Source: Aurantiacibacter odishensis (GTDB lineage Bacteria; Pseudomonadota; Alphaproteobacteria; Sphingomonadales; Sphingomonadaceae). From it: a stretch of 64,000 nucleotides of DNA. This document shows, one piece after another, positions 38,650 to 55,169 of this stretch. The translations under genes and the position numbers were made by a program. Position 1 is the stretch's first letter, and every line of letters begins with the position of its first letter. The notes beneath the pieces were generated by a model. The model did no database searches. It worked only from the letters and a program-made list of their open reading frames with translations, and had not been told where the DNA came from. The DNA is taken from NCBI RefSeq assembly GCF_003605195.1, contig NZ_QYOS01000025.1:682001-746000 (forward strand), in the 5' to 3' direction.

Positions 38650-38658
38650 GCGTGCGAA

Positions 38659-40215: not shown

Positions 40216-41428
40216 CGCGCGAAGACACCTGAACCATGCTCAACAATTGCGGCAATTCAGACAGCATGGCTCGCCAGTTCATTGTCTCCATGACGAACCG
40301 CCGCGCCTCATGCCCCAATGTCCGTGAAGCGGCGGGCTCAGATGCAAGCCGCAGCAGTGCAGCCACGAAAGCGGCGTTGTCTTCTGCAACGAGGACTTGC
40401 TCGTTCTCGGCTGCGTGAATGCCGCTCGCAGCATCTGGCGACACGATGACGGGCCGCGCCATGGCCATTGCCTCCAGCACCTTGTTCTGCACACCCCGCG
40501 CGATCCGGAGCGGTGCCACGACGGCATCTGCGCCGGCGAGCCAGGGCCGCGTATCGGGCACTTCGCCGATGACGCTGGTACCGTGAACGCCGTGCAAGGA
40601 TCGCACTTCTTTAGTAGGGGCGCGGCCGACAATATGGAACTGTGCCGCGGGCAGAGTGCGTAGGACGTCGGGCATGATCTCGCGGGCCATCCGCGTAACG
40701 GCTTCGACATTGGGGGCGTAATCCATCTGCCCTGTAAAAACATAATGCGGGCCACCTTCCATCAGTACCGGGGCAGGTCCGACCGAACCCGGATCGAACA
40801 GCGCACAGTCGATGCCGTTGCGCAGGGCACGAATATCGTGCGTTCCGCTCGTCCGCTCCCGCAGCAAGTTGGCCTCGGCCTCGCTCACCAGCAGCGTGGT
40901 GTCGGCGCGTTGTACGAGGCGGGATTCTTCCGCTTTCAGCAGCCTCCCCTCCCGTGCATCGACGAACGCCCGTGGACCGGTTCCCGCCTTGCCGTAAGCT
41001 TCGAACTTGGCGGAATCGACATCGACGAGATCGAGCAGAAGGTGTCCTTGCCAATCGGTCGGCACATACTGTCCCATTTGCCCGGAAAAGACGTAGATTG
41101 CCGCTATCTTGCCCGAACTGAGGAGGTTCTGCACCCAATCCGCCAACTCGCGCGAGCGGAAAGCGGCAAAGCTTACAGGCTCACCGCGCAGTAAAGCTTC
41201 GGCACCGGCTAGTGTAAGCGGCTTCGATCGGCGTGGCATGCACCAGCTGCGCGCCATTCCGTCCAGGAAGTGCGCGGACGCCATATCGGCATCGGTCTCG
41301 GCGAGGCAGCCGACATGCACGGGCGCAATGCCCGCCAGCGCCTTGAGGACGTGGTGCGAACGAATCTTGTCGCCGCGGTCAGGGGGGAACGGCAGGCGAT
41401 GCGCGAGGAAGAGGATATCGCCGCTCAT
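40205..41428 (-). CDS. Exosortase A-associated glycosyltransferase (TIGR03087 type)
   Basis: 407-aa GT4-like glycosyltransferase. The N-terminus LFLAHRLPFPPDRGDKIRSH and the later segments FTGQMDYAPNVEAVTRMARE and ARGVQNKVLEAMAMARPVI are typical of this PEP-CTERM-linked family (TIGR03087, recalled). It should add a sugar to the polysaccharide repeat on its lipid carrier at the inner face of the membrane; sugar specificity cannot be read. It overlaps xrtA by 11 bases and is 9 bases after the FemAB-like gene. Confidence 0.93.
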   Translation of the reverse strand: MSGDILFLAHRLPFPPDRGDKIRSHHVLKALAGIAPVHVGCLAETDADMASAHFLDGMARSWCMPRRSKPLTLAGAEALLRGEPVSFAAFRSRELADWVQNLLSSGKIAAIYVFSGQMGQYVPTDWQGHLLLDLVDVDSAKFEAYGKAGTGPRAFVDAREGRLLKAEESRLVQRADTTLLVSEAEANLLRERTSGTHDIRALRNGIDCALFDPGSVGPAPVLMEGGPHYVFTGQMDYAPNVEAVTRMAREIMPDVLRTLPAAQFHIVGRAPTKEVRSLHGVHGTSVIGEVPDTRPWLAGADAVVAPLRIARGVQNKVLEAMAMARPVIVSPDAASGIHAAENEQVLVAEDNAAFVAALLRLASEPAASRTLGHEARRFVMETMNWRAMLSELPQLLSMVQVSSRDAA

Positions 41429-41437
41429 GGCTGTCCC

Positions 41438-42496
41438 CTACCCAAGTCCGCGCGCAATGATCGGACCGACCCGGTTCGCCACGCCCAGCGGCAACTTCTT
41501 CCACAGCGCGATGCGCGACTGGTGCTGCGCACTGGTAGGATCGGCGTCCCGCGCCTCATGGCCCGGTGCGGTCCAGCTTGCGTAGGACAAGGGCTCGGCT
41601 CCGAAACCCCAGTTCTTCTTGAATGCGTAGGCCCCGCTGTTGGTCTTGCTGCGCCCAAAATCGAAGCGCTCGCACCCGCGGCTGCGAGCATGCAGCATCA
41701 GCTCGAAATACATGCGATCGTTGGCGCGGAGGCGGCGCGCATTCCATGTGCCGCCGCCCCAGTACGGCATGACCGCGCCATCGTGATAAAGCGAAAGCAC
41801 GCTCGCGACGGGCGCGCCCTTGTCCCACACTGTCAGGATGTCCGCATCGAGCCTGTCGAGCACGGCATCGAACAGGGCCTTCGGGAACACCGGCGTGCCA
41901 AGGTTACGCACGCTTTCGGCATAGACGCGGTAATGCGCCAGGCGTTCTAGCGAGCCCTTGCCAGTCGTGACCTTCAGATTGATGTTGAGGCTCTTGCGAA
42001 CCTCGGCGCGCTGCTTGCGCGGGATCGCTGCGAGTTGCGCATCGTCGTCCACGGCCAGCGGCGCGACGAAGCCGCAATGGCTTTCGTGGCGCAGGTGCCA
42101 TCCGCGGCCTGCCACGCCGCCACGAACCTCCACCGTCGGGCAGGACAGGCGAAGCGCATATTCCTCGGCCGCAGTAATCAGGTTCAAGGCGGTTTCGTCG
42201 CTTTCGGCCAGTGCGCCGCCTTCAACCGCAAAACCGGAGGACGCCAGCATTCGTCCGAACACGGGTGAATGAACCTCGGTCAGCGGCAGCCAGCCTGTCA
42301 CCCTGTCGCCTCTTTCCGCGACAAGACCTCGGGCGCGCTGGCCCGTGCCTGTTTCAACAGCCTGCAACCATGCCGGCCGGTGGAAGACCGATCCAGCTTG
42401 GTCCGCCACGTATGCCTCGATGCGGGCCACTTCGTCTGGCTGGCGCAGGTCGACAGCGCGCGTCATTTCGCGAACCATGGGGAACGGCGCATTCAT
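41438..42496 (-). CDS. FemAB-like protein, exosortase A-associated
   Basis: 352-aa GNAT-fold protein of the FemAB/BioF2-like group (TIGR03019 from memory). Recognisable segments include VFHRPAWLQAVETGTGQRAR, the basic stretch IPRKQRAEVRKSLNINLKVT, and the core FDFGRSKTNSGAYAFKKNWG. FemAB proteins transfer amino acids from tRNA; here the likely role is aminoacyl or acyl modification of the polysaccharide, which is inference. ATG 42496 overlaps the deacetylase stop (ATGA). Confidence 0.9.
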   Translation of the reverse strand: MNAPFPMVREMTRAVDLRQPDEVARIEAYVADQAGSVFHRPAWLQAVETGTGQRARGLVAERGDRVTGWLPLTEVHSPVFGRMLASSGFAVEGGALAESDETALNLITAAEEYALRLSCPTVEVRGGVAGRGWHLRHESHCGFVAPLAVDDDAQLAAIPRKQRAEVRKSLNINLKVTTGKGSLERLAHYRVYAESVRNLGTPVFPKALFDAVLDRLDADILTVWDKGAPVASVLSLYHDGAVMPYWGGGTWNARRLRANDRMYFELMLHARSRGCERFDFGRSKTNSGAYAFKKNWGFGAEPLSYASWTAPGHEARDADPTSAQHQSRIALWKKLPLGVANRVGPIIARGLG

Positions 42497-43404
42497 CCGT
42501 GCACCGCTTTCTCCAGGCGTAGTCGCAGGTTCTCACGCTTGGCGACGCCATCCATGCGGCCCCAGTGAAACTCGCGCACGAGGTGTTCGAGCTTGCCGGA
42601 CATCTTGCCAAGGTTCGTGTAGTGCCGCAAACGCGAACGCAGCGGCGCCCCAGCCACCCGAGGCTGGCCCGGATCGATTTCCCAGGGGTGGAAATAGAAG
42701 ATCGCCGGACGCACATCGGTGCGGTTGACCTGGCGGATGGCCCAGCGGCTGAACGCGTATGGCAGGACACGGAAGAACCCGCCCCCGCCTGCAGCCAGGC
42801 GCTTACCGCGAAACATGGCAGTTGTGACGGGGAGCTCTACGAAATTGCTGCCCTCGACCGGCTTGAACGCGAAACGCGGCGCTTCCCGCCAGCCATAATG
42901 ATCGTGCGCAATCGGCGCGACGCTGGAGGAATAGAGGTAGCCCGCATCCACCAGTGCCTCGTGCGCCCATGGCGTGCGCGCATCGATGGAGAAACTTGGC
43001 GCGCGATAGCCGACAACCCGCGTGCCGCTCGCGTCTTCCAGCACCTTTCTGGTGCTGGCAATATCGGCCGCGAAACTCGCCTCGTTCATGCGAAACACGC
43101 GTTGGTGATCCCAGCCGTGGCTGGCAATTTCGTGGCCGCGGCCGGCAATGTCGCGCAGTAGGCTTCCGTGGCGCTGCGCCACCCAGCCCAGCGTGAAGAA
43201 GGTGCCTTTAGCGCCCGCCTCGTCGAACAGGTCGAGAATGCGGCGCACGTTGCGGTCCACCCGGTCATCCAGAGTGGACCACTGGCCGCGCTCGATCACA
43301 TCCTCGAATGCGCCGACCTGGAACCAGTCTTCCACATCGACCGACAGGCCGTTGACGACTTCTTCCGCCTTGGCCGGCTTGTTGTCGAAGTTCAGAGCAT
43401 TCAC
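42493..43404 (-). CDS. Polysaccharide deacetylase, exosortase A-associated
   Basis: 303-aa NodB-type carbohydrate esterase (CE4). The metal-site Asp pair is in LSVDVEDWFQVG and the His pair in EIASHGWDHQRVF. Other motifs are TFFTLGWVAQR and GYRAPSFSID. It removes N-acetyl groups from the polysaccharide or a precursor (TIGR03006 type, recalled). The start is GTG 43404 with AAGGAG ten bases upstream; no ATG is suitably placed. Confidence 0.94.
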   Translation of the reverse strand: MNALNFDNKPAKAEEVVNGLSVDVEDWFQVGAFEDVIERGQWSTLDDRVDRNVRRILDLFDEAGAKGTFFTLGWVAQRHGSLLRDIAGRGHEIASHGWDHQRVFRMNEASFAADIASTRKVLEDASGTRVVGYRAPSFSIDARTPWAHEALVDAGYLYSSSVAPIAHDHYGWREAPRFAFKPVEGSNFVELPVTTAMFRGKRLAAGGGGFFRVLPYAFSRWAIRQVNRTDVRPAIFYFHPWEIDPGQPRVAGAPLRSRLRHYTNLGKMSGKLEHLVREFHWGRMDGVAKRENLRLRLEKAVHG

Positions 43405-43445
43405 GGCGTTTCGGCTCCTTGCCCGGATTGGCTCCGCCTTGGCGT

Positions 43446-44600
43446 TCAGGCGGCCTTGCTCGAATCCATGTCGTTCTCGATCCAGTCGATCAACATGGTG
43501 AGCGTCTGACGGATCGTGCGCTCCTGTTCAAAGCACCTGGATTCGACGCGGGCGAGCTGCGCGCGCAGGCTTTCGATCTCCGGGTTCACCTTCTCAGCAA
43601 TATCGGCGTCGCGCTGATCGGCCATTTCCACGATGGCCTGCTGCAATTCGGCGATCTGGGCGTCGCGCTCGGCCAGGTATTCTTCCAGCATCTCCCTGTC
43701 GACCCGCGGAGTGGTGGGCATGGCCTTCACAGGCTCATAGCTCACCTCCTGCGCGGGCATCGGCGAGGGTGCCGCTTCGGGGAAGGCACGCTCCGCCTCC
43801 ATCTCGGCCAGAACGTTCTGCAGCATGGCAGCATCGATGCGGTTTCTCTCTTCCACAGCGCCCAACAGCAGCAGGCGATTGGCGATCTGGTTCACCCGGC
43901 GCGGAATACCGCCGCTGGCTTCGTACAGTTCCGTAAACACGCGCTGGTCGAATGCCGGGTTGCCATCCCAGCCCACTACTTTCAGGCGGTGGAAGATATA
44001 GGGCTCGATCTCACCTTTCTGCATCGGCTCCAGGTGGTGCGCGGCAATCACGCGCTGGCGCAGCTGTTCGAGCCCCGGGTCGCTCTGGATCGTCACGCGG
44101 AATTCGGGCTGGCCCAGCAGCAGCGTCTGCAACAGCGGGTGGTTGCCAAGCTGGAAGTTCGACAGCATCCGCAGCTCTTCCAGCGCCGAAACGGAAAGGT
44201 TCTGCGATTCGTCCATCACCAGCAGGCAGCGGCGACCCTCACGGGCTTCCTCGTGCAGGAAGCTCTCGATCTCGGTCAGCGCGGTGGCCTTGTCATGCCC
44301 TTCGATATCGAGACCGAAGCTGCGCGCGACGACGTGGACAATCTCTTCGCCATCCAGCTTGCTGGTGACGACCTGCGCGATAGTGACCTGGCTATCATCC
44401 AGGCTTTCCATCATGTGCGCGACCAGCGTCGACTTGCCCGATCCCACTTCGCCGGTGATGACGATGAAGCCCTCTCCTTGCGCTAGGCCATAGCCGAGGT
44501 AGGACAACGCCTTGCGATGCGTCACCGAGCGGAAGTAGAACTCCGGATCGGGCGTCAGCTGGAAAGGCTTGCCGGTGAGGCCATAGAAGTTATCGAACAT
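43446..44600 (-). CDS. Exosortase A-associated ATPase (ExeA/GspA-like)
   Basis: 384-aa AAA ATPase (TIGR03015 type, recalled). The N-terminus is MFDNFYGLTGKPFQLTPDP, Walker A is GEVGSGKSTLVA, Walker B is CLLVMDESQNL, and the sensor region is LLGQPEFRVTI. The last roughly 90 residues form a coiled coil. The start is ATG 44600 with AAGGAG upstream; the longer open frame upstream lies inside the outer-membrane protein gene. Likely powers or organises export across the envelope. Confidence 0.94.
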   Translation of the reverse strand: MFDNFYGLTGKPFQLTPDPEFYFRSVTHRKALSYLGYGLAQGEGFIVITGEVGSGKSTLVAHMMESLDDSQVTIAQVVTSKLDGEEIVHVVARSFGLDIEGHDKATALTEIESFLHEEAREGRRCLLVMDESQNLSVSALEELRMLSNFQLGNHPLLQTLLLGQPEFRVTIQSDPGLEQLRQRVIAAHHLEPMQKGEIEPYIFHRLKVVGWDGNPAFDQRVFTELYEASGGIPRRVNQIANRLLLLGAVEERNRIDAAMLQNVLAEMEAERAFPEAAPSPMPAQEVSYEPVKAMPTTPRVDREMLEEYLAERDAQIAELQQAIVEMADQRDADIAEKVNPEIESLRAQLARVESRCFEQERTIRQTLTMLIDWIENDMDSSKAA

Positions 44601-44625
44601 GGGTCTGGTCTCCTTGATGACCCTA

Positions 44626-46311
44626 TCAGTCAAACGTGTAACGAAGGCCCAGCAGGGCCGAAGCGGATGAATAGTCGGCGAGGTCGTCGTCGCGGCTGAT
44701 GCCGTCGATGCCCACGGCAGCGATGCCGGTGAGTCCGCGCCAGATGTCGCGATTGTAGGCGAGCGATGCGGAATAACCGATGCCATCGCCCAGATTGCCC
44801 GCGCCGGCATCGAACCAGCTGGCATAGGCACCAGCGGACAGCCCCGAATTGCGATCGAGCTGGTGGGCGATATTCGCCGCGATGTAATAGCTTTCGTCCA
44901 CCACCCCATCCACAGCGGCGAGGACGGTCTCCTCCGCGCCAATGAAGCTGCGGCGATCGTAACCCGCGCCGATGCCGAAGCTGGTGCGTCCGGCAACGGC
45001 GGAATAGCTCGCGGAAACCCCGCGATTGCGGAAGACCGAGGAGCGCAGCGAGTTGAGCTGTGCTAGCGTGCAGTTGTTGCCCTCCACCCCGATCACGCAG
45101 CCGCCGAGGTCGCCCGAGATCGGATTGCGAACGGCGGTGAAATCGGTGCCCAGCAGGTCCAGCGCGTTCGTCAGTTGCCCCCCGAAGCCGGTGATGTTGT
45201 CGTAAACGGCGACGCTGAGGCCCGAATTGCGGCTGGGCGCGTAAGATAGCGTGCCGTAATAGGTGGTGGAGCCATAGCGGCGGCCCAGTGTAGCAGAGAG
45301 CGAGGTGCGGCGACTGGGCCGCCACATCACGCCCACGTCCCAGATCAGCCCGTCTGTCTCATAGGCGATCCGGCGCGGCTGGCTTTCGTCGGTGACAAGT
45401 CGGCCATCGGGGCCGAGCAGCACAGTGCCATCCGCATCCAGCACGGCGTCGCGGCTGGATACCTCTACGTCTTCGTACCCGACACCCGCTACCAGAGCGA
45501 GGGTCGGAGAAACCGGGAGCGTCACGTCGGCGCGCACGTACTTGTCGTCGATACGCTGATCGAGATTGGAAATGTCCTGGCGGTTCCATCCGCCGCCCAC
45601 ACCGACGCCAACCGGTGCGACCGTGCCCGGAGCAAGCCCGACGCGCAGCGCAGCATTATGCGTCACGCTGTCGTCGAAGATATCTACCGGCTCCTCACCC
45701 GGCGCGAGCGCCAGCGCATCGGGCGACTCCACACGGGTGTAGCCGAGCCGATACTGGCCGCTGATCTGCATCGGCCCGGAACGGGTCTGGATCGCGGGAC
45801 CTGCGTAGACAGAATAGATCTGGCTGGTTGACCCCTCATTTCCGGCAATCTGGCCGACCGAACTGAATCCGCTGCCATCCACGCTGGTGCGGGAAGCGAG
45901 GCCCCCGGCCTCCAGCGTGATGCCCTGGCGATAGAGGCTGAGCGACGCGCGGGCGATGCCCGACACGGTATCGCTGTCCACCGCATCGCCGTAACCAATG
46001 TCGCGTTCGTAACGCAGCGATGCGGATGCGGCGCTGTTGCGGCCCGCAATCGTGGCATCCACGCCAGCGGCAAGCTGCGTGTAGGTCAGCACCTCGTCGC
46101 CCGGTTGCAGCTGCGCGGTAATGACCTGCGAAGCCTCGATATAGGGCGCTACGTCCGCGCCGTAGGCACGCTCGGCACGCTCGTTGCTGTCGCGCTCGGC
46201 CATTGCAGAAGGGGCAGCGGGGCCTTCCTGCTGGGCAAGCGCGGCCTGCGACAACGTGGCCAACGCCAGCGCAAGGGTCGCTCTCGCAAACAGACATGGG
46301 TGCCCTGCCAT
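44626..46311 (-). CDS. Exosortase A-associated outer-membrane beta-barrel protein
   Basis: 561-aa protein (TIGR03016 type, recalled) with a signal peptide (residues 1 to about 27, ending ALAQ) and a body of alternating amphipathic strands such as SASLRYERDIGYG, FGIGAGYDRRSFIG and GLRYTFD at the C-terminus. The final aromatic Phe is followed by a charged residue, roughly as in outer-membrane barrels. It probably forms or surrounds the polysaccharide exit pore. ATG 46311 overlaps the kinase stop (ATGA). Confidence 0.92.
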   Translation of the reverse strand: MAGHPCLFARATLALALATLSQAALAQQEGPAAPSAMAERDSNERAERAYGADVAPYIEASQVITAQLQPGDEVLTYTQLAAGVDATIAGRNSAASASLRYERDIGYGDAVDSDTVSGIARASLSLYRQGITLEAGGLASRTSVDGSGFSSVGQIAGNEGSTSQIYSVYAGPAIQTRSGPMQISGQYRLGYTRVESPDALALAPGEEPVDIFDDSVTHNAALRVGLAPGTVAPVGVGVGGGWNRQDISNLDQRIDDKYVRADVTLPVSPTLALVAGVGYEDVEVSSRDAVLDADGTVLLGPDGRLVTDESQPRRIAYETDGLIWDVGVMWRPSRRTSLSATLGRRYGSTTYYGTLSYAPSRNSGLSVAVYDNITGFGGQLTNALDLLGTDFTAVRNPISGDLGGCVIGVEGNNCTLAQLNSLRSSVFRNRGVSASYSAVAGRTSFGIGAGYDRRSFIGAEETVLAAVDGVVDESYYIAANIAHQLDRNSGLSAGAYASWFDAGAGNLGDGIGYSASLAYNRDIWRGLTGIAAVGIDGISRDDDLADYSSASALLGLRYTFD

Positions 46312-47297
46312 CACGCCTCTTCACCGTAATAGGCACCGAAGCGGCGGCCGCTGGGGCTGAAATGCGCGGCATTGAGCAGCAGTTTGAGATCGGGACAGGC
46401 GGAGAGCAGCGTCAATGCATCCTCGAGCGCATTCTGCCCTGTACGATCGGCACGAACGACCATGATGGCCTGACCCACGTGATTGGCGAGTTCGGCAGCC
46501 GGAGAGGCCGCCAATGCGGGCGGACTGTCGAAGATGATGATCCGCCGGGGCGCAGCGCGGGTCAGCCGGTCCAGCACCTGCGCCGTGCGATGGCTGGCGA
46601 GGTATTCGCTGTCCGACGTGGTGTGATTGCCTGCTGGCAAAACGTGCAGTCCGGCGATGTCGGTAGCGAGCACGCAGTCTTCCACCATCACGTCGTCGCG
46701 TGCCAGCACGTCCATGAAGCCCGGCCCCTTCGGCAGGCCCAGCATCCTGAGCACGGAGGGCTTTGCGAAATCAGCATCCACAAGCAGGACTTCGCAGTCC
46801 TTCTCTGCGGCCAGCGCCAGCGCGAGGTTTACCGCGCAATAAGTCTTGCCCTCGTCCGGGTGCGGAGAGCAGATCAGCACGCGCTGCGCCAGCGCACCGT
46901 TGCCCTTCTCCTGCGCCTTGCGCACCGATTGCAGCACCTGCCGCTTCACGATGCGGAACTCCTCCAGCAATTCGGTGACTTGCCCCTCAGGCTGGATCAG
47001 GCCGTAGCGGGACAGGCAGTCCCGGTTGAGCGGGTGCTGCTTGTCGCTGAATTTCACGTCGACGTAGACTGGCTCCGGCGGCGCTCGCAGTTCCGCCTGC
47101 GGCGCTTCGATAGGCACCGGGGCTTCTTCGCTTTCGTTCAACTTCGGTTTCGGCGTTGCACGTTTCGGGCGACGGTTCACCGGCTTCTTCAATTCATTCG
47201 GTACCTTGGCCGGCTTGTAGCCGCCCATGCCGAACATGCTTTCGGCCCGCTCCAGCAGCGTCTTGGGTGGTTCGGGAGAGTTGCTCTGGTCTGTCAT
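46311..47297 (-). CDS. Exosortase A-associated tyrosine autokinase (CpsD/CapB-like)
   Basis: 328-aa BY-kinase (TIGR03018 type, recalled). The N-terminal 100 residues are basic and low complexity. Walker A is SPHPDEGKTYCAVN, Walker A' is VLLVDADFAKPSV and Walker B is RIIIFDSPPALAA. The C-terminal end has only one or two Tyr (GAYYGEEA), so autophosphorylation sites are few. It partners with the chain-length protein that follows upstream to control polymer length. Gap to that gene is 13 bases. Confidence 0.93.
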   Translation of the reverse strand: MTDQSNSPEPPKTLLERAESMFGMGGYKPAKVPNELKKPVNRRPKRATPKPKLNESEEAPVPIEAPQAELRAPPEPVYVDVKFSDKQHPLNRDCLSRYGLIQPEGQVTELLEEFRIVKRQVLQSVRKAQEKGNGALAQRVLICSPHPDEGKTYCAVNLALALAAEKDCEVLLVDADFAKPSVLRMLGLPKGPGFMDVLARDDVMVEDCVLATDIAGLHVLPAGNHTTSDSEYLASHRTAQVLDRLTRAAPRRIIIFDSPPALAASPAAELANHVGQAIMVVRADRTGQNALEDALTLLSACPDLKLLLNAAHFSPSGRRFGAYYGEEA

Positions 47298-47310
47298 CGC
47301 TCGGTCCCCC

Positions 47311-48828
47311 TCAAGCCACCATGCCGCGCTGGACGAATTCGACGCCCATCAGCACCACGAACATCACGCCCAGTCCGCCGACGCCGGCTGCGAAATACTT
47401 GAGGCGCTTGGCCCGCAATTCGCGGCCTGCCTCGGTAAAGGTATGCGAGATCGTACCGATCACCGGCAGACCGACGCTGCGCTCAAGCTGGCCTGCGGTT
47501 GCGAAAGTAGAGCCGAGCTTGCTCAGTGCGTAGGCACTGCCGCCGCCCGCACCTATGCCCACGATCAGCACTCCCAGCAGCAGCAACGGCCGGTTTGGCG
47601 CGGCAGGCTTGCGCGGGGTGGTTGGTGGATCGACCACTTCGAACTGCACCGCGCTCCGCTCGTTTTCCACCTGCCCCCGCAGGCGCAGTTCCTCACGGTC
47701 CTGCAGGAGCTGGTCGTACTGTTCGCGCAGCACGTCATAGTCCCGGCTGATCCGCTGGGCTTCGGCAGCAGCGCCCGGCTCCAGCGCCTGGTTTGCCGTG
47801 ATCGAGGCGATTTCCGCCCGCAGCCCCGCCGCCCGCGATTGCAAGGACTGCACGTTGGACTGCCGTTCCACGTACATCGACTGAAGCGTGCTGTAGGCGG
47901 GGTTCAGCTGGCCGCCCGAAGGCCCGGCTGCCTGTGCCTGTTCGCGCAAAGAGGCAACCGTCCGGCGGGCTGCGACCATGTCGGGATGCTCGTCGGTAAG
48001 ACCGCGTGCCTCCAGCGCGGCGAGCTGCGCCTGGGCCTGCGCCAGCGAAGCCTGCGGTCCGCCAGATCCGGGCGTGACGATGAAGCGCGGCGTGCTGGAG
48101 ATCTGGCCCTCCAGGCCCGCCAGCGCGCTCTGCGCGGCGGCAAGGTCGGCTTCCACAGCGCGCAGTTCGGCGCGGGTCGCGTTTAACTGGTTGGCAATGG
48201 CCTGCGCCCCGCCGATCAGTTCCGGGTGCGCGGTTTCGAATGCGAGGCGGCGCTCTTCTGCCGCAGCAAGCTCGGCTTCGCGCGCGGCCAGCTGCTGGTT
48301 CAGGAATTCGATGGAGTCCTGCATATCCCCGCGCGCCCCGCCAAGGTTCTCCTCGCGGAAAATCTCGATCATGCGCTGGGCGATGACTTGCGCCAGTTCC
48401 GCGTTCTGCGAATCGGACAAGTCCCGGCGACCGCTGGCAGCGGTGATCTCGAAGATGTTCTCGCCTTCGCTCACCACCTCGATATCCCTGGTCAGCCCCT
48501 CAATGGCGGCTTCCATGTCGGTGGGTGAAGTCACACCGTCGCCGATACGGGTGGAGCGGACCACCTTCTCCAGATTGACCGCGCTGACAAGCGTCTGGCG
48601 GATACGATCGATATCGCGCGCGCGGCTTGCCGCACCTATGCCGATCTGTTCGGCAAGCACGTCGTCTAGCTGCACGAAAATGCGCGTTTCGCTCTCGTAG
48701 GTGTTGGGGATCAGCGCGACGACCAGCCAGCCCAGAAGGCAGGTTGCCCATGCGATGCCCAGCGCCAGCCAGCGGCGATTCCAGATCGCATAGATGCCGC
48801 CACGCAGTTCTTCGAGAAGCTGGTTCAA
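47311..48828 (-). CDS. Exosortase A-associated chain-length determinant (Wzz/GumC-like)
   Basis: 505-aa polysaccharide copolymerase (TIGR03007 type, recalled). One helix near residues 19-40 (RRWLALGIAWATCLLGW...), then a long periplasmic coiled-coil region (about 170-380) and a second helix region near residue 425. The kinase is a separate gene here. The start is TTG 48828 with GAAGG just upstream; it yields the family N-terminus NQLLEELRGGIYAIWNRRW. Controls polymer length with the tyrosine kinase. Confidence 0.93.
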   Translation of the reverse strand: MNQLLEELRGGIYAIWNRRWLALGIAWATCLLGWLVVALIPNTYESETRIFVQLDDVLAEQIGIGAASRARDIDRIRQTLVSAVNLEKVVRSTRIGDGVTSPTDMEAAIEGLTRDIEVVSEGENIFEITAASGRRDLSDSQNAELAQVIAQRMIEIFREENLGGARGDMQDSIEFLNQQLAAREAELAAAEERRLAFETAHPELIGGAQAIANQLNATRAELRAVEADLAAAQSALAGLEGQISSTPRFIVTPGSGGPQASLAQAQAQLAALEARGLTDEHPDMVAARRTVASLREQAQAAGPSGGQLNPAYSTLQSMYVERQSNVQSLQSRAAGLRAEIASITANQALEPGAAAEAQRISRDYDVLREQYDQLLQDREELRLRGQVENERSAVQFEVVDPPTTPRKPAAPNRPLLLLGVLIVGIGAGGGSAYALSKLGSTFATAGQLERSVGLPVIGTISHTFTEAGRELRAKRLKYFAAGVGGLGVMFVVLMGVEFVQRGMVA

Positions 48829-48844
48829 AGCCTTCGGACCTTCC

Positions 48845-49489
48845 TCAGAACATGCTTTCCGGGATGATGATCACGTCGCCGGGACGCAGCATCACGTTGG
48901 CATCGCTATCCCCACGCCGCAGAAGGTCTGCCAGGCGCAGGGAGTATTCCTTCTGGCTGCCGGACTGGCGATCAAACCTGATCAGCGTAGCGCGGTTGCC
49001 CGCAGCGTATTCGTTGAGGCCACCGACCGCGATCATCGCGTCGAGCAGCGTCATGTTGGCGCGGTAGGGGATGGAGGCGGGCTGCGCGGTCGCACCCACG
49101 ATGCGAACCTGCTGGCTGAACGTGCCGGCAAATTCGTTCACGATCACGGTCACCAACGGCTCTTCGATGTATTGCGACAGTTGCAGACGGATATCCTCGG
49201 CAAGCATCGTCGGCGTCTTGCCCACGGCGGGCATATCCGCCACCAGCGGCGTGGTGATCCGGCCATCGGGGCGCACCTGCACCTCTGCACCAAGTTCGTC
49301 GTTGCGCCAGACGTGGACGGTGAGCTTGTCGAGCGGACCGATAACGTATTCCTCGCCAGGCCCTTCCTGCATCGCAACAAAACGCGCGGGCTCAAGCTGC
49401 GGACCCGATGCCCCGCCGCCGCAGCCGGTCAGGCCGACAGCGAGACAGGTCGAGGCGAACATGAGACTTACGGGCATTTTCGTGCGCAT
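48845..49489 (-). CDS. Polysaccharide export lipoprotein (Wza-like), exosortase A-associated
   Basis: 214-aa outer-membrane export lipoprotein (TIGR03027 type, recalled). The lipobox is LTGC near residue 24. The Poly_export domain includes EEYVIGPLDKLTVHVWRNDE, and the SLBB-like segment is QVRIVGATAQPASIPYRANM. First gene of the export half of the cluster. About 190 bases separate it from the decarboxylase gene, with a hairpin in between, so it probably has its own promoter. Confidence 0.94.
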   Translation of the reverse strand: MRTKMPVSLMFASTCLAVGLTGCGGGASGPQLEPARFVAMQEGPGEEYVIGPLDKLTVHVWRNDELGAEVQVRPDGRITTPLVADMPAVGKTPTMLAEDIRLQLSQYIEEPLVTVIVNEFAGTFSQQVRIVGATAQPASIPYRANMTLLDAMIAVGGLNEYAAGNRATLIRFDRQSGSQKEYSLRLADLLRRGDSDANVMLRPGDVIIIPESMF

Positions 49490-49681: not shown

Positions 49682-50908
49682 TCAGACCAGCAATTCGCGG
49701 GCTGCACCCTGGCCGAGGAATGTCGCCGGGCTGGCGCTCGCCCCATATGCCCCGGCGCAGAACACGGCGACCAGATCACCCACCTCTGCGCGCGGAAGGT
49801 GTGCCGCGTCCGCCAGGCGATCCAGCGGGGTGCAAAGACAGCCGACGACGTTCACAACCTCTTCCGGCTCCGCATCGAAGCGCGTGGCGATGGCCACGGG
49901 ATAATTACGCCGGACAACGGTCCCGAAATTTCCGGACGCTGCCAACTGGTGATGGAGCCCGCCATCGGTAATCAGGTAAGTGGTGTCGTGGCTCACCTTC
50001 CGATCAACAACACGCGTCAGGTATACACCTGATTCGCCGACGAGATATCGCCCCAGTTCGATCGCGAACCGGGTTTCGCGTAGCACGTTAGGAAGGTCGG
50101 CGAAGCGTTCTTCCAATGCGGCACCTATTGCGGCGATATCGACCGGCGTGTCCTTGTCGAAATACGGAATGCCGAAGCCACCGCCCATGTTGAGGTGCGG
50201 CAGGTCTACGCCCGCTTCGTCTGCCAACTGCGCGGCAAGGTCGAGCACGTGACCTTGCGCCTCGATCAGCGCCTCTGCATCCAGTGCTTGGCTGCCCGAA
50301 TAGATATGGAAGCCCTGCCAGTTCGCGCCAGCGTCGACAATCCTTCGCGCAAGCGCGGGAACGCGGTCCGCGTCGATGCCAAACGGCTTCGCCCCGCCGC
50401 CCATCTTCATGCCGGAACCGCGCAGTTCGAACGTCGGGTTCACCCTGATCGCGAGCCGGGGCTTCACTTTCAGTTGCTTGCCCATCTGGAGCGCGCGCCC
50501 CGCCTCGTTCTCGGATTCGAGATTGAGCGTGACCCCGGCCTTGATTGCGGCGAACAATTCACGGTCGCGCTTACCCGGCCCCGCAAAGCTTATCTCGCGC
50601 GGCAGATAGCCAGCTTCGCGAGCTTGCTCGAACTCTCCGATGGAGGCGATATCGAGACCATCTACGAGGTCTGCGATGAATTGCAGCAAAGGCCCGTAAG
50701 GATTTGCTTTCATTGCGTAATGAATATTCAGGCGCTCTGGCATCGCGGCGCGCAATCCGGCGATGCGCTGCTCGATAATACTGCGAGAGTAGACGAACAG
50801 CGGCGTGTCACCGGCCTCTTTGACCAGCGAGGATGCCGTGCGTCCGCCGATGGAAAGCTCGTCATCCAGGGCCGTGAATTCGGGCGGGATCGGGCCGAGC
50901 GCCTTCAT
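49682..50908 (-). CDS. Exosortase A-associated PLP-dependent decarboxylase
   Basis: 408-aa fold-III PLP enzyme of the ornithine/DAP decarboxylase superfamily (TIGR03099 type, recalled). The PLP-binding Lys is in IHYAMKANPYGPLL, with the phosphate-binding loops HIYSGSQAL and NMGGGFGIPYF, the active-site Cys region NVVGCLCTPLDRLA and GAYGASASPATFLGQ near the end. The true substrate is unknown; the gene starts at ATG 50908 overlapping the acyl-ligase stop (ATGA), so it likely acts on what the ligase activates. Confidence 0.94.
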   Translation of the reverse strand: MKALGPIPPEFTALDDELSIGGRTASSLVKEAGDTPLFVYSRSIIEQRIAGLRAAMPERLNIHYAMKANPYGPLLQFIADLVDGLDIASIGEFEQAREAGYLPREISFAGPGKRDRELFAAIKAGVTLNLESENEAGRALQMGKQLKVKPRLAIRVNPTFELRGSGMKMGGGAKPFGIDADRVPALARRIVDAGANWQGFHIYSGSQALDAEALIEAQGHVLDLAAQLADEAGVDLPHLNMGGGFGIPYFDKDTPVDIAAIGAALEERFADLPNVLRETRFAIELGRYLVGESGVYLTRVVDRKVSHDTTYLITDGGLHHQLAASGNFGTVVRRNYPVAIATRFDAEPEEVVNVVGCLCTPLDRLADAAHLPRAEVGDLVAVFCAGAYGASASPATFLGQGAARELLV

Positions 50909-52407
50909 GTCATTTCTCTTGCAAGCAGGGCCCGGTCGACCTTGCCGTTGGGGTTCAGCGGCATGGCATCGAGCCAGCGGATAACAGCGGGCTGCATGAA
51001 ATTGGGCAATTCGCGCCGAAGCGCCGCTCGCAACTCGTCTTCCGAACCGCTGCCGCGCACGACAAGATAGATGGCGTGCCCCAGTTTGTCGTCGGGAACG
51101 CCAAGGGCAACGGCTTCCTCGGCCAGTCTCGTCGCGATTGCTGCCTCCTCGATTTCCTGCGGGCTGATGCGATTGCCCGCGCTCTTGATCATGGCATCGT
51201 CGCGCCCGACGAAATAGAGCAAGCCATCCTCGTCCCGCCGCACGTTGTCGCCAGACCACACCGCCATGCCGCCGTAGTGCGACGCCTTGGGGGCAGGCTT
51301 GAAACGTTGCGCCGTCCGCTCCGCATCCTGCCAGTAACCTTGCGCAACCAGCGGGCCGCAATGCACGAGTTCACCTTCACTGTCGATCTCACCATCCTGA
51401 TTCACAACGAGGATTTCTGCAAACGGAATGGCGCGGCCCATCGATGTGGGATGCTTGTCCACCAGTTCGGGATCGAGGTATGTCGAGCGGAAAGCCTCTG
51501 TCAGGCCGTACATCGGAAACAGGCGCGCGTCCGGGAAAGTGCGGCGAAGATCCCCTACGAGATCCTCCGTCAAGGCGCCGCCACTGTTGGTCAGGCGGCG
51601 CATCGATGCCACCGCCTCGGCGGGCCACTTCTGCCTCACGAGCTGCACCCACAGCGGCGGCACGGCGGCGAGCGTCGTGATGCCATGGCGGCCGCACGCC
51701 TTGATGACGTCACGCGGCGTCAGGTAGTCCAGCGGCACCGCGCTGCCGCCCGCGTACCAAGTGGAAAGCAACTGGTTCTGCCCGTAATCGAAACTGAGCG
51801 GCAAGACGGCGAGCGTCACGTCGTCCGCCTTCATTCCGAGGTAATGCGCCACGCTGACCGCGCCCAGCCACAGGTTGCTATGGCTGAGCATTACGCCCTT
51901 GGGCCGTCCGGTGGAGCCACTGGTGTAGAGGATGGCGCAAAGGCCAGCGAGATCGGCTGACGAGGGATCGAGCAACGGTGTTGCCGAGCGCGCTGCCTCC
52001 AAGGCTGTCGCTTCCTCGATCTGCGGGCAACCGGCGGGCACATCCCCTTCCTCCATCGAAGCGAGACGCGCCGCATTCGCGATTAGCAGACTGGCGCCGC
52101 TATCGGCGAGAATATGGTTTACCTGCGCCCGCTTCAGCAGCGGGTTTATCGGCACGTGCACCAGCCCTGCCCGCGCAGCCGCAAGCGGCATCAGGCAGGT
52201 CAGTTCCCCCTTGGCCGCCCATGTGGCGACCCGCGCGCCCTTCTCCGGGACCTTGGAGCTTAACCATCCCGCAAGCTGCGCGACACGGCTTCTTAAGTCC
52301 TTCCAGCTAAGCGTCTCCCCCCGCAGGACCAAAGCCGCGTCCGCATCATCACCACGCAGCGCAAGGTGATCGAGCGGATAGGGCGTGGGGTCGGGCGTGG
52401 TGGGCAT
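50905..52407 (-). CDS. Exosortase A-associated AMP-forming acyl ligase
   Basis: 500-aa ANL-superfamily enzyme (TIGR03098 type, recalled) that activates a carboxylic acid as acyl-AMP. Core motifs: ILYTSGSTGRPKGVMLSH, MYGLTEAFRST, YFVGRDDAMIKSAGNRISP and the catalytic Lys near the end in LNPNGKVDRALL. The start is ATG 52407 with AGGAAG upstream; frames extending further are antisense to the neighbouring plus-strand gene. The likely thiol acceptor is the acyl carrier protein encoded divergently at 53428. Confidence 0.93.
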   Translation of the reverse strand: MPTTPDPTPYPLDHLALRGDDADAALVLRGETLSWKDLRSRVAQLAGWLSSKVPEKGARVATWAAKGELTCLMPLAAARAGLVHVPINPLLKRAQVNHILADSGASLLIANAARLASMEEGDVPAGCPQIEEATALEAARSATPLLDPSSADLAGLCAILYTSGSTGRPKGVMLSHSNLWLGAVSVAHYLGMKADDVTLAVLPLSFDYGQNQLLSTWYAGGSAVPLDYLTPRDVIKACGRHGITTLAAVPPLWVQLVRQKWPAEAVASMRRLTNSGGALTEDLVGDLRRTFPDARLFPMYGLTEAFRSTYLDPELVDKHPTSMGRAIPFAEILVVNQDGEIDSEGELVHCGPLVAQGYWQDAERTAQRFKPAPKASHYGGMAVWSGDNVRRDEDGLLYFVGRDDAMIKSAGNRISPQEIEEAAIATRLAEEAVALGVPDDKLGHAIYLVVRGSGSEDELRAALRRELPNFMQPAVIRWLDAMPLNPNGKVDRALLAREMT

Positions 52408-52431
52408 GAACTTCCTGGAGTGCGCTTCTCG

Positions 52432-53415
52432 GTGACGGCGATCAGCTATCACGACACGGTTAACGATCTGCAAGGCCTCGATTGGTCTAATGCAGGTCCT
52501 TTTGCACGGCCGGAATGGTTCGCCTTGCTCGAAAACAGCGGTATGCGACCTTTCCTGGCGCTTGCCCGAAGCCATGAGCAAGGCATCGCCCTGCCCCTTT
52601 GCCGAACCGGCAACGGCTTCGAAGCGCTGACCAATTGGTATGCCTTCACCTGGAGCGACCTTCGCACGAGCGGCGCGGGCGACGATGCCATGCTTAGGGA
52701 ACTCGCCGCAGACCTTGCGCGCCGGACACACCGCGTGGTCCTTTCCAAGCTGCCGGACGATGGCACCCTGACGCGGTTCGCACATGCCTTTCGCAGCGCC
52801 GGATGGCTTGTCATTGTCGAACCCTGCGACACGAACCACGTCCTCGCAGTCGGTGAGCGAAGTTACGAACAGTATCTTGCCAGTCGCCCGGGTCACTTGC
52901 GCACGACACTGAAGCGTAAAGCGAAGAAGGTCGAGCTGGCGATTGCCGACAGGTTTGACCCTGCCGATTGGTCGGCATACGAGGATATCTACGCCGATAG
53001 CTGGAAACCTGAGGAAGGCGATCCAGACCTCCTGCGTGCCTTCGCGCAGGGCGAAAGCGAAGCGGGCCGCTACCGCTTCGCCCTTGCCCGCCGGTACGGA
53101 CAGCCAATCGCCGCGCAATTCTGGACCGTCGATAACGGCACGGCCTACATTCACAAGCTGGCGCACCGGCAGGGCGTCGACAAGCTCTCGCCCGGCACCA
53201 CGCTGACTGCGGCTATGTTCGAGCGGGTCATCGATACCGACGGCGTCAATCTCGTCGACTTCGGCACGGGCGACGATCCTTACAAGCGCGACTGGATGGA
53301 AGACGTAAGAGTGCGATGGAGGCTCATCTGTCTCGGGCCGGGGAGCCCGCGAAACTGGCCGGTCCTGGCGAAGCACGTGTTTCGCAAGCTTGTGCGCGGG
53401 GCATCCGATGGCTAG
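52432..53415 (+). CDS. FemAB/GNAT-like acyltransferase in the exosortase A cluster
   Basis: About 327 aa, GNAT-fold protein with a BioF2/FemAB pattern: FARPEWFALLENSG, the basic LRTTLKRKAKKVELAIADRF, then RYGQPIAAQFWTVDNGTAYI and VDFGTGDDPYKRDWMEDVRV. It is a second such protein besides the one at 41438. The start is uncertain: GTG 52432 fits a GGAG at 52417-52420; GTG 52420 is the alternative. It begins a plus-strand unit with ACP and two hydrolases. Probably transfers the carrier-bound acyl group to an acceptor. Confidence 0.85.
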   Translation: MTAISYHDTVNDLQGLDWSNAGPFARPEWFALLENSGMRPFLALARSHEQGIALPLCRTGNGFEALTNWYAFTWSDLRTSGAGDDAMLRELAADLARRTHRVVLSKLPDDGTLTRFAHAFRSAGWLVIVEPCDTNHVLAVGERSYEQYLASRPGHLRTTLKRKAKKVELAIADRFDPADWSAYEDIYADSWKPEEGDPDLLRAFAQGESEAGRYRFALARRYGQPIAAQFWTVDNGTAYIHKLAHRQGVDKLSPGTTLTAAMFERVIDTDGVNLVDFGTGDDPYKRDWMEDVRVRWRLICLGPGSPRNWPVLAKHVFRKLVRGASDG

Positions 53416-53427
53416 TGCGCAACTATT

Positions 53428-53721
53428 ATGGCGACCAACCTTCCCGCCCGCACCGAACAGTCCGAGGACACGGATCTCATCCTGCGCCAGGTCCTTTCGG
53501 ACGTGCTCGGCCTTTCGGCAGAGCGAATCGACGAGCTTGAACCGGACTCCGGCCTTTTCGGACATCTGCCGGAACTCGATTCCATGGCGGTCGCCGGGCT
53601 GCTCACCGAACTGGAAGACCGGCTCGATATCATCATCGATGACGAGGACGTTGACGGCGAAATGCTGGAGACGTTCGGAGGTCTTCGTTCTTTCCTCGTC
53701 GGCAAGCGCGCCATCGGCTGA
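53428..53721 (+). CDS. Acyl carrier protein
   Basis: 97-aa acidic protein with the phosphopantetheine attachment site LDSMAV (Ser 52) and the four-helix ACP pattern (TDLILRQVLSDVLGLSAERI, then VAGLLTELEDRLDIIIDDED). It differs from fatty-acid AcpP and lies inside the exosortase cluster, so it is likely dedicated. Predicted to be loaded by the divergent AMP-forming ligase. Spaced 12 bases after the transferase gene and 6 bases before hydrolase 2. Confidence 0.93.
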   Translation: MATNLPARTEQSEDTDLILRQVLSDVLGLSAERIDELEPDSGLFGHLPELDSMAVAGLLTELEDRLDIIIDDEDVDGEMLETFGGLRSFLVGKRAIG

Positions 53722-53727
53722 ACCGCC

Positions 53728-54390
53728 ATGCTGACGGGTCTCTGGCCCTCGCCCTCCGGTAACGATGAATACGTGCTCGGCTTCGATGCAGACCGGGCCC
53801 GACGCGTCCTGTTGCTGCGCGGTCTGTTCGACGAAGGCAACAAGCTGCGCCATTTCACTGTCGAACTGATGCGCAGGCTGGATGTAGCCGGAATCGATTC
53901 ATTCCTGCCTGATCTGCCTGGCACCAACGAAAGCCTCGCTCCGCTGGAACGCCAGACTCTGGCCGGATGGCGAGAAGCGATGCGTCACGCCGCGAACCAT
54001 TTCCGCGCCACGCACGTGCTGGCGATCAGGGGTGGCGCACTGGTTGCGCCAGCCACTCTGCCCAACGTCCATTACGCCCCGGCTTCCGGCCCCAGCCTTC
54101 TGCGCGCAATGCTGCGTGCGCAGGTCATGGTTGCAAGGGAGGCAGGCCGCGCAGACACGCGCGAGGAACTCCTCCGTCGTGGCCGGACAGAGGGCTTGCA
54201 ACTGGCCGGATACCGGATCGGCCCCGAAATGATTGCCGAGCTGGAGCAGGCGCAGCCTGAAGATACCGTTGCGGTGGAGATCGCGCAGGGCGATGTCGGT
54301 GGCGGCGGCCTCTGGCTGCGCGTCGAACCCGGTCACGATCCAGCCCAGGCCGATCGCCTCGCCGCGCTGGTGGCGGAGCGGCTGCCATGA
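53728..54390 (+). CDS. Exosortase A system-associated hydrolase 2
   Basis: 220-aa protein with an alpha/beta-hydrolase-like pattern (TIGR03101 type, recalled): LLLRGLFDEGNKLRHFTVEL and SFLPDLPGTNESLAP. Where the serine-nucleophile elbow is expected the sequence reads LAIRGGALV, with no Ser or Cys, so it is probably not a hydrolase in the normal sense. The end overlaps hydrolase 1 by ATGA. It may act as a chaperone or scaffold for its partner, which is speculation. Confidence 0.83.
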   Translation: MLTGLWPSPSGNDEYVLGFDADRARRVLLLRGLFDEGNKLRHFTVELMRRLDVAGIDSFLPDLPGTNESLAPLERQTLAGWREAMRHAANHFRATHVLAIRGGALVAPATLPNVHYAPASGPSLLRAMLRAQVMVAREAGRADTREELLRRGRTEGLQLAGYRIGPEMIAELEQAQPEDTVAVEIAQGDVGGGGLWLRVEPGHDPAQADRLAALVAERLP

Positions 54391-55169
54391 CAAGGCAGCA
54401 TGTCCCGTTTTCCTGCCTCGCCGAGAGTCTGGTCGGTACTCTGGACGATGCAGAGGGATCGGCAGGCTTGCTGGTGGTGAGCGGTGGTAACGCGGCCCGT
54501 AACGGTGCCTTCTCAGGCCTGTCGCGGCTTTCGGCACAGGTGGCTGCGGCAGGCTTTCCGGTATTTCGTTTCGACCGGCGCGGGGTCGGGGACAGTAGCG
54601 GCGAAAACCTTGGTTTCCGCGCCTCCGCCCCTGATGTCGAGGCCGCCATCGCCAGATTCCGACAGCAATGCCCGCAGGTCCGGCGATTTGTCGGCTTCGG
54701 CAATTGCGACGGGGCTGCGGCACTGATGCTGGGGCGCGGTTTCGGAATGGATGCGCTGGTCCTCGCCAATCCGTGGACGTTCGATGACGAGGCCTCGGAC
54801 GAAACCACGCCCGAGGCGATCCGGGCGCGTTCCCTCGAAAAACTGCGCAATCCGCGGGAGATCGCTCGCCTGATTACCGGGAAGGTGTCTCTTGGCGGCG
54901 TGGCCAGAAGCCTTAAACGCGCCGCGACGACAAGGCCATCGACCACGATTCTGGGCGAAACCATGGCATCGTCGCTGGCTGAGTTCGATGGCGACGTCCG
55001 CATCCTGCTGGCGAGCCGGGACCGTACGGCGCAGGCGTTCAAAGCGAACTTCCCGATCAGCGACCAGACGGTGCATGAGTGCACCGGCGCAGATCACGCC
55101 TTCAGTGACCCGGAGCACAGTGACTGGTTACGGCACCACATTATCGAGGTCCTAAACGATCAAGCCTGA
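54387..55169 (+). CDS. Exosortase A system-associated hydrolase 1
   Basis: 260-aa alpha/beta hydrolase (TIGR03100 type, recalled). The nucleophile elbow is FVGFGNCDGAAAL, with Cys in the nucleophile position, and the likely His is in CTGADHAFSDPEH. The arm FRFDRRGVGDSSGENLGFRA matches the family. It could release a product from the acyl carrier or edit a mis-loaded one. ATG overlaps hydrolase 2. The 3' end overlaps the convergent RNA methyltransferase gene by 10 bases. Confidence 0.87.
   Translation: MTRQHVPFSCLAESLVGTLDDAEGSAGLLVVSGGNAARNGAFSGLSRLSAQVAAAGFPVFRFDRRGVGDSSGENLGFRASAPDVEAAIARFRQQCPQVRRFVGFGNCDGAAALMLGRGFGMDALVLANPWTFDDEASDETTPEAIRARSLEKLRNPREIARLITGKVSLGGVARSLKRAATTRPSTTILGETMASSLAEFDGDVRILLASRDRTAQAFKANFPISDQTVHECTGADHAFSDPEHSDWLRHHIIEVLNDQA

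Follow-up and report, generated by a model that had tools for sequence, protein, structure and literature searches.

An exosortase A-associated ligase, carrier protein and decarboxylase as a probable beta-alanine pathway in place of PanD

What do the biosynthetic genes that adjoin an exosortase A (XrtA) locus make, and is the exosortase needed for what they do? The question is raised by a stretch of DNA from Aurantiacibacter odishensis (Sphingomonadales; contig NZ_QYOS01000025.1, positions 682,001 to 746,000), analysed here at its full length of 64,000 nucleotides (the window), in which six adjacent open reading frames (ORFs) lie beside such a locus. These six genes fall into two functional layers. 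The core trio consists of an AMP-forming ligase (TIGR03098; 50905-52407, minus strand; 636.2 bits against a cut-off of 592.35), predicted to be an L-aspartate:acyl carrier protein ligase acting on the beta-carboxyl; a pyridoxal phosphate (PLP)-dependent decarboxylase (TIGR03099; 49682-50908, minus strand; 583 bits against 478.45), predicted to be a beta-aspartyl-carrier alpha-decarboxylase; and a stand-alone acyl carrier protein (ACP; PF00550, 27.9 bits; 53428-53721, plus strand) with its phosphopantetheine site at Ser52 (LDSM). The other layer comprises two hydrolase relatives, hydrolases 1 and 2, and a GNAT transferase. Judging from sequence and distribution, the trio is likely to be a carrier-protein-dependent beta-alanine pathway that replaces PanD in the synthesis of coenzyme A (CoA).

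In such a pathway, the ligase would adenylate the side-chain carboxyl of L-aspartate and load it on the ACP (L-Asp to beta-Asp-S-ACP), and the decarboxylase would then remove the alpha-carboxyl on the carrier (beta-Asp-S-ACP to beta-Ala-S-ACP). With the thioester on the side chain, the alpha-carboxyl stays free for the PLP enzyme, so that the ligase and the decarboxylase fit each other. The beta-alanine would be released, by some enzyme or spontaneously, and PanC would use it for pantothenate and CoA. In genomes with exosortase A, hydrolases 1 and 2, often with the FemX-like GNAT, would probably divert beta-alanyl-ACP to an exosortase or polysaccharide acceptor. We infer every catalytic step here, as well as the substrate, the release and the acceptor, from sequence.

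The decarboxylase and panD are not found together. For the genes of the window, family membership means an NCBIfam score over the cut-off, and XrtA was counted as present in a genome by the same rule. In the order sample, 197 genomes of Sphingomonadales, 163 carry the decarboxylase (160 over cut-off), 18 carry panD, none carries both and 16 carry neither. The contrast of 0/163 decarboxylase genomes with panD against 18 of the 34 others has a Fisher value of 1.6e-16, with kinship between genomes ignored. We also sought panD in 80 genomes outside the order, where it is missing from all 10 that have the canonical decarboxylase.

An exchange of the two at a single site can be seen in genus g183, where 16 genomes have the decarboxylase without panD and three have panD without the decarboxylase. 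Genome G349 has the order rmuC-def-recR-fmt-truA-(decarboxylase-ligase-ACP)-trxB-pyrG-secG-tpiA, and the collinear G392, also of g183, has rmuC-def-recR-fmt-truA-(panD)-trxB-pyrG-secG-tpiA, the flank names in both being read from sequence. As to the other two panD genomes, G434 retains the truA side and in G415 panD lies 5 kb from trxB; since the three loci share neighbours pairwise, they are counted as one event and not three. The trio looks like a remnant left in place after the XrtA locus was cut down, and panD would then have taken that place. Two genomes of different genera, both without XrtA over the cut-off (G394 and G472), have panB on the same strand 3.6 kb upstream of the ligase, in the order panB, TPR-like, bamB-like, der, ligase, decarboxylase (intervening names read from sequence). 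An E. coli PanB query gave two matches in 109 stretches, namely 108 loci and the window, and an E. coli PanC query gave none in these stretches.

Among the genomes with neither gene, G440 includes a 32,479-base contig that equals a plasmid of Zymomonas mobilis ATCC 10988 in length and matches it with 100% identity over the 20 kb compared; by this identity G440 is that strain. Z. mobilis is cited as a pantothenate auxotroph without aspartate decarboxylase (PanD) activity that grows with beta-alanine (passages in PMC10370309 and PMC9746714, citing Gliessman 2017).

The trio also persists where XrtA is missing or falls below its cut-off. XrtA over the cut-off is missing from 41 of the 163 decarboxylase genomes, spread over 13 genera; seven of the 41 have exosortase matches below the cut-off (G301, G350, G394, G414, G437, G472 and G477). 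We read 20 of these 41 loci. Ligase and decarboxylase are present in 20/20 and the ACP in 18/20, with no export or chain-length gene within 10 kb in any of them. Ligase and decarboxylase are under constraint among the XrtA-less loci (dN/dS, the ratio of nonsynonymous to synonymous divergence, 0.05-0.37 in 18 comparisons, at dS 0.7-2.5), and the trio must therefore do something that does not need exosortase; the idea of a strictly exosortase-dependent trio was rejected. Remains of the locus do occur: an XrtA-type ATPase-like gene is retained in 5/20, in G356 hydrolases 1 and 2, the GNAT and an amidotransferase-like ORF are still there, and a further XrtA-less locus, in G146, retains the deacetylase too. 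In L075 and L084, panB, der, ligase and decarboxylase lie together though no ACP adjoins the ligase-decarboxylase pair, and the carrier may be elsewhere. Because the trio is kept in loci that have lost the export genes and in which XrtA is absent or scores too low, and because its decarboxylase excludes panD in the order sample, its main job is most simply beta-alanine supply. The original prediction, made from the window's sequence alone, had read all six genes as a single biosynthetic line whose product is transferred to a polysaccharide, lipid or protein; the same two observations speak against such a single line with the exosortase polysaccharide as its end point.

A published survey of beta-alanine supply found aspartate decarboxylase (ADC) in 17% of 204 genomes, and many alphaproteobacteria that make CoA without PanD (PMC7142369). 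Of its table, 19 Sphingomonadales rows were consulted: every one has 0 for ADC, and no more than two have 1 for PYD3. The three Erythrobacter rows have 0 for both PYD3 and PYD2. Erythrobacter sp. SD-21 and Novosphingobium capsulatum NBRC 12533 are entered with PanB and PanC present and PanD and glutamate decarboxylase (GAD) absent (Table A2 of PMC7142369). In our data both carry ligase, ACP and decarboxylase (loci L136 and L170), and at the SD-21 locus no exosortase-locus gene lies within the 6 kb read on each side, except an ATPase-like one.

The ligase itself points to aspartate. With a profile of 23 relatives searched against the PDB, VinN is the best stand-alone enzyme among the matches listed (361.7 bits; next stand-alone enzyme 299.0); multi-domain nonribosomal peptide synthetase chains reach higher sums, with 255 and 295 bits for the two LgrA domains taken one at a time. 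A search with the middle of one ligase homologue ranks VinN first, and the Asp, Ser and Arg of this homologue align with VinN chain positions 246, 315 and 347. These would be Asp230, Ser299 and Arg331 if the chain has 16 extra residues, and the three offsets agree. The corresponding residues of the window's ligase are D207, S275 and R307; D207 and R307 are found in 42/42 ligases compared and S275 in 34/42, with Thr in the other eight. At position 208, which corresponds to VinN Phe231, a position described in PMC11253843, 38/42 have Tyr or Phe and four have Ala. A further mark of VinN-type ligases is a beta13-beta14 loop shorter than in alpha-amino-acid adenylation domains, as set out in a passage of PMC11253843; in the alignments compared, the loop here aligns with that of VinN without gaps, but is two residues shorter than in LgrA domain 2 and two longer than in LgrA domain 1. 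Identity as a fatty acyl-CoA ligase was discarded on account of the Asp aligned with VinN Asp230 and the VinN-type Arg. The ligase is a predicted L-aspartate-adenylating enzyme, with the beta-carboxyl as its putative target.

For the decarboxylase, the nearest solved structure is BtrK at 220 bits, where the best chain of a diaminopimelate decarboxylase (LysA-type) reaches 141; the family profile widens this to 443 bits against at most 330 for LysA-type structures. A plain LysA (TIGR01048) identity was rejected at 239 bits, under the cut-off of 297.9. Residues K67, H201, E284, C359, D363 and Y388 are kept in 42/42 sequences compared, and the enzyme probably acts on a carrier-bound substrate, as BtrK does. 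The phosphopantetheine Ser of the ACP is present in 38/38 sequences compared, the nearest solved chain being 2lki (51 bits). The original prediction had proposed that an acid or amino acid is activated and loaded on the carrier, and that it loses its carboxyl either there or in the free state; the comparisons with BtrK and VinN make an amino acid and decarboxylation on the carrier probable.

How does such a route relate to known systems? PanD, the aspartate 1-decarboxylase (TIGR00223), has the same predicted product, beta-alanine, and occupies the same chromosomal site in g183, but it is one small pyruvoyl enzyme that works on free aspartate without carrier or ATP. BtrI-BtrJ-BtrK, which makes the butirosin side chain, shares the decarboxylase family and carrier-bound decarboxylation with the trio; it differs in using glutamate, in a BtrJ that is not of the AMP-forming ANL type and in passing its product to an aminoglycoside. 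VinN-VinL-VinO of vicenistatin synthesis has the same set of ligase, ACP and PLP decarboxylase, with Asp230, Ser299 and Arg331 conserved, and side-chain loading followed by carrier-bound decarboxylation is reported for it (PMC11284099); it uses 3-methylaspartate, however, and feeds a polyketide synthase via a second ligase and an acyltransferase, neither of which is seen here. A parallel in substrate is AfcQ-AfcK-AfcP of the AFC-BC11 lipopeptide in Burkholderia, where a VinN-type ligase attaches the side chain of L-Asp to one carrier and a PLP enzyme decarboxylates it, L-Asp being turned into carrier-bound beta-Ala in vitro (PMC12186527). That system belongs to secondary metabolism, is iterative and continues with fatty acyl-AMP ligase and ketoacyl-ACP synthase III (KAS III)-like steps, whereas the trio here excludes panD. 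Reductive uracil degradation (Rhizobium etli AmaB) is another published answer to a missing panD in alphaproteobacteria (PMC7142369), and it employs different enzymes and a different precursor.

Natural product pathways already provide examples of the mechanism class. In the open-licence literature searched, neither a role for it as an apparent PanD substitute nor an assignment to TIGR03098 and TIGR03099 was found, and no product was named for these families, which agrees with the earlier statement that none is established. The words ligase and decarboxylase are absent from the 2006 paper that defined the PEP-CTERM/EpsH system. If the pathway operates as proposed, it would be a three-gene answer to CoA synthesis without PanD and would assign a function to two families whose names so far record nothing but a link with exosortase A. 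It would also place a mechanism of secondary metabolism at an essential vitamin step and would explain why the trio genes outlive the exosortase locus.

Several observations weigh against a beta-alanine pathway or reduce what its distribution can say for it. Genomes in which hydrolase 1 is missing have no evident enzyme for the release, and the ACP was not seen in two of the 20 XrtA-less loci read. The 18 panD genomes comprise 15 of family f2 and the three of g183 with shared neighbours, which makes for few independent events. In the 16/197 genomes with neither panD nor decarboxylase (e.g. G343, G370, G420 and G468), another beta-alanine source or auxotrophy must exist, and G440 is the sole identified genome among them. 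Other sources are also named in the survey: a GAD-like gene is entered for the other two of its three Erythrobacter rows, and aminomutase and GabT genes for N. capsulatum, each a possible origin of beta-alanine (PMC7142369). Outside the order, panD was found in 3/13 alphaproteobacterial controls and 22/28 other controls; since it is uncommon in alphaproteobacteria, its absence there is weak evidence. Among the non-alphaproteobacterial genomes, panD occurs in 0/9 with the decarboxylase against the 22/28 controls (p = 4e-5, relatedness ignored), and the independent evidence is smaller because four of the nine share a family with each other or with genomes that lack both panD and decarboxylase. 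Four XrtA genomes without the decarboxylase are also without panD (0/4). Finally, 8/25 genomes with distant relatives of the cassette carry panD, and the surroundings of some of these relatives look like secondary-metabolism clusters.

Could the trio instead make beta-alanyl-ACP, or gamma-aminobutyryl (GABA)-ACP, only as a donor that decorates an exosortase-linked polysaccharide or protein via the GNAT/FemAB and hydrolase proteins? This was the earlier view, and the company the genes keep is in its favour. In the phylum sample of 299 genomes, the decarboxylase, ligase and XrtA are over cut-off in 26, 25 and 29 genomes, respectively; XrtA is present in 24 of the 26 decarboxylase genomes, and all 25 ligase genomes fall within those 26. 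Of the 62 named loci with XrtA-locus genes, 50 have hydrolase 1 and several of the remainder are truncated by contig ends; the GNAT model is FemX-like. Even G107, which has no XrtA match, holds a canonical ligase-decarboxylase-ACP cassette within an exopolysaccharide locus that also has glycosyltransferases, a deacetylase and an ORF weakly matching Wzy_C (L036:5128-14833). We nevertheless consider a donor-only role unlikely, as it leaves the panD exclusion unexplained and has to accommodate the 41/163 decarboxylase genomes without XrtA over cut-off, where all 20 loci read keep ligase and decarboxylase with export and chain-length genes gone. Less likely again is a route like that of BtrI/J/K, from L-glutamate to GABA-ACP, for which we see only a slim chance. 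The nearest solved decarboxylase, BtrK, is indeed a glutamyl-ACP decarboxylase; yet BtrK is likewise resembled by BolN, for which an aspartyl carrier is the proposed substrate. Of the stand-alone enzymes VinN is the nearest to the ligase, in which its three recognition residues are conserved, the VinN-type AfcQ takes L-Asp and BolO is proposed to do so, and the exchange with panD points to beta-alanine.

The exclusion between panD and the trio might also be an accident of shared ancestry, the trio having some other XrtA-independent role. The panD genomes are clustered (15 in f2, three in g183), as such an accident would have it, and the 16 genomes without either gene fit it as well. It is harder to reconcile with an exchange at one collinear site within g183, with the panB neighbourhood in two genomes, with an identified auxotroph (Z. 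mobilis, G440) among the genomes that have neither, and with the 0/9 against 22/28 outside the class. We would give this explanation little credence, and prefer beta-alanine supply for CoA.

In the window, the exosortase A locus occupies 36754-49489, adjoining the six genes, and contains an amidotransferase, XrtA with an EpsI domain, a glycosyltransferase, FemAB, deacetylase, kinase, and chain-length and export genes. On the minus strand are XrtA fused to the EpsI domain (38659-40215; TIGR03109, 324 bits; TIGR02914, 92.5 bits), the XrtA-associated FemAB (TIGR03019; 41438-42496, 294 bits) and the XrtA polysaccharide deacetylase (TIGR03006; 42493-43404, 413 bits). All six ORFs that had been announced are present, as are the 4-base overlaps of ligase with decarboxylase and of hydrolase 2 with hydrolase 1. 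They do not form a single unit, being arranged in two divergent ones, with ligase and decarboxylase on the minus strand, the other four on the plus strand and 24 bases between the ligase and GNAT starts. The statement that these families are recorded with exosortase A holds, since decarboxylase, ligase and hydrolase 1 all score over the cut-offs of XrtA-associated NCBIfam families.

Only the hydrolases and the GNAT behave as an exosortase-linked part, and hydrolase 1 (TIGR03100; 54387-55169, plus strand; 204.3 bits against 168.45), predicted to be an acyl transferase or thioesterase, tracks XrtA together with the trio. This was followed in 31 chosen genomes of the phylum sample, the 26 with the decarboxylase and five XrtA genomes without it. 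Hydrolase 1 occurs in 24/24 with XrtA and decarboxylase (23 over cut-off); among the other seven it is unmatched in five, and two have weak matches, G007 with 46 bits and G107 with 58 bits at a place away from its cassette. FemAB is present in 29/29 XrtA genomes (28 over cut-off) and in 0/2 without XrtA over cut-off. In the order sample, which has XrtA over cut-off in 139 genomes and hydrolase 1 in 118 (116 over cut-off), hydrolase 1 is found in 116 of the 122 genomes with decarboxylase and XrtA, the six misses all belonging to genus g191, and in two of the 41 with decarboxylase and no XrtA over cut-off; it is in 0/17 XrtA-only genomes and 0/17 with neither. Being not found in 39/41 of the decarboxylase genomes without XrtA over cut-off, hydrolase 1 was set aside as a general beta-alanine releaser. 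Its model (pLDDT, the predicted local distance difference test score, 83.7) has an alpha/beta-hydrolase fold with esterase and lipase neighbours at a template modelling (TM) score of about 0.6. C107, D212 and H237 are kept in 40/40 sequences, and a Cys nucleophile would suit a thioesterase or acyl transfer.

Hydrolase 2 (53728-54390, plus strand) is a short, diverged TIGR03101-like protein that scores 32.5 bits, under the cut-off of 202.75, so that its assignment rests on position and a partial alignment. In the nucleophile elbow of this alpha/beta-hydrolase relative, Arg takes the place of Ser in 9/9 aligned sequences. An active serine hydrolase was rejected for this reason, and the family name "hydrolase 2" is probably misleading. 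The GNAT gene (52432-53415, plus strand, GTG start) had been called GNAT/FemAB-like. Its sole family match is PF13480 (67.7 bits); it is not the XrtA FemAB of TIGR03019, which is the separate gene at 41438-42496, and it has no NCBIfam match at E <= 0.01. Its sequence profile had no match among solved structures, while its AlphaFold model (pLDDT 84.5) resembles the aminoacyl transferases FemX, Sba18/Sbb17 and MprF (TM 0.53-0.67). Hydrolases 1 and 2 and the FemX-like GNAT make up the second, exosortase-linked layer.

A longer history can be sketched, which we regard as quite unlikely as a whole. The trio would at first have supplied the exosortase A system with beta-alanine; panD would have been lost as a result, and the trio would have become essential and outlived the locus. 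In XrtA genomes, beta-alanyl-ACP would feed CoA and also, via hydrolase 1 (of Cys type), hydrolase 2 (lacking a nucleophile) and the FemX-like/FemAB transferases, a beta-alanyl polysaccharide arm whose free amine accepts PEP-CTERM proteins from exosortase A.

The full XrtA layout in many named loci is trxB-hydrolase 1-hydrolase 2-ACP-GNAT-ligase-decarboxylase-export. Variants occur in genus g191 (G362, G410, G427, G450, G462 and G463), with trio and XrtA present and hydrolases 1 and 2 missing, and in the Sphingobium loci L153, L155, L163, L166 and L185, which keep trio, XrtA and GNAT without the two hydrolases and have trxB directly beside the ACP. This shows that the locus can do without the hydrolases in the g191/Sphingobium group.

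Further settings were seen among loci outside the order. L059 (9516-15063) has, next to one another, ligase, decarboxylase, a B12-binding radical SAM protein, a small ACP-like ORF and an acyltransferase of the AAC(3) type, which possibly put a modified beta-amino acyl group on an amine. A distant cassette relative in L056 is accompanied by a sulfotransferase. L051, L053 and L055, from alphaproteobacterial and other genomes, contain an ACP-like ORF, decarboxylase, KAS III-like proteins and several ligases, in an acyl-CoA dehydrogenase/P450 setting that recalls afc; in L051 the decarboxylase is fused to an acyl-CoA dehydrogenase and a P450 is present. These three clusters look like relatives of the AFC-BC11 and bolagladin clusters.

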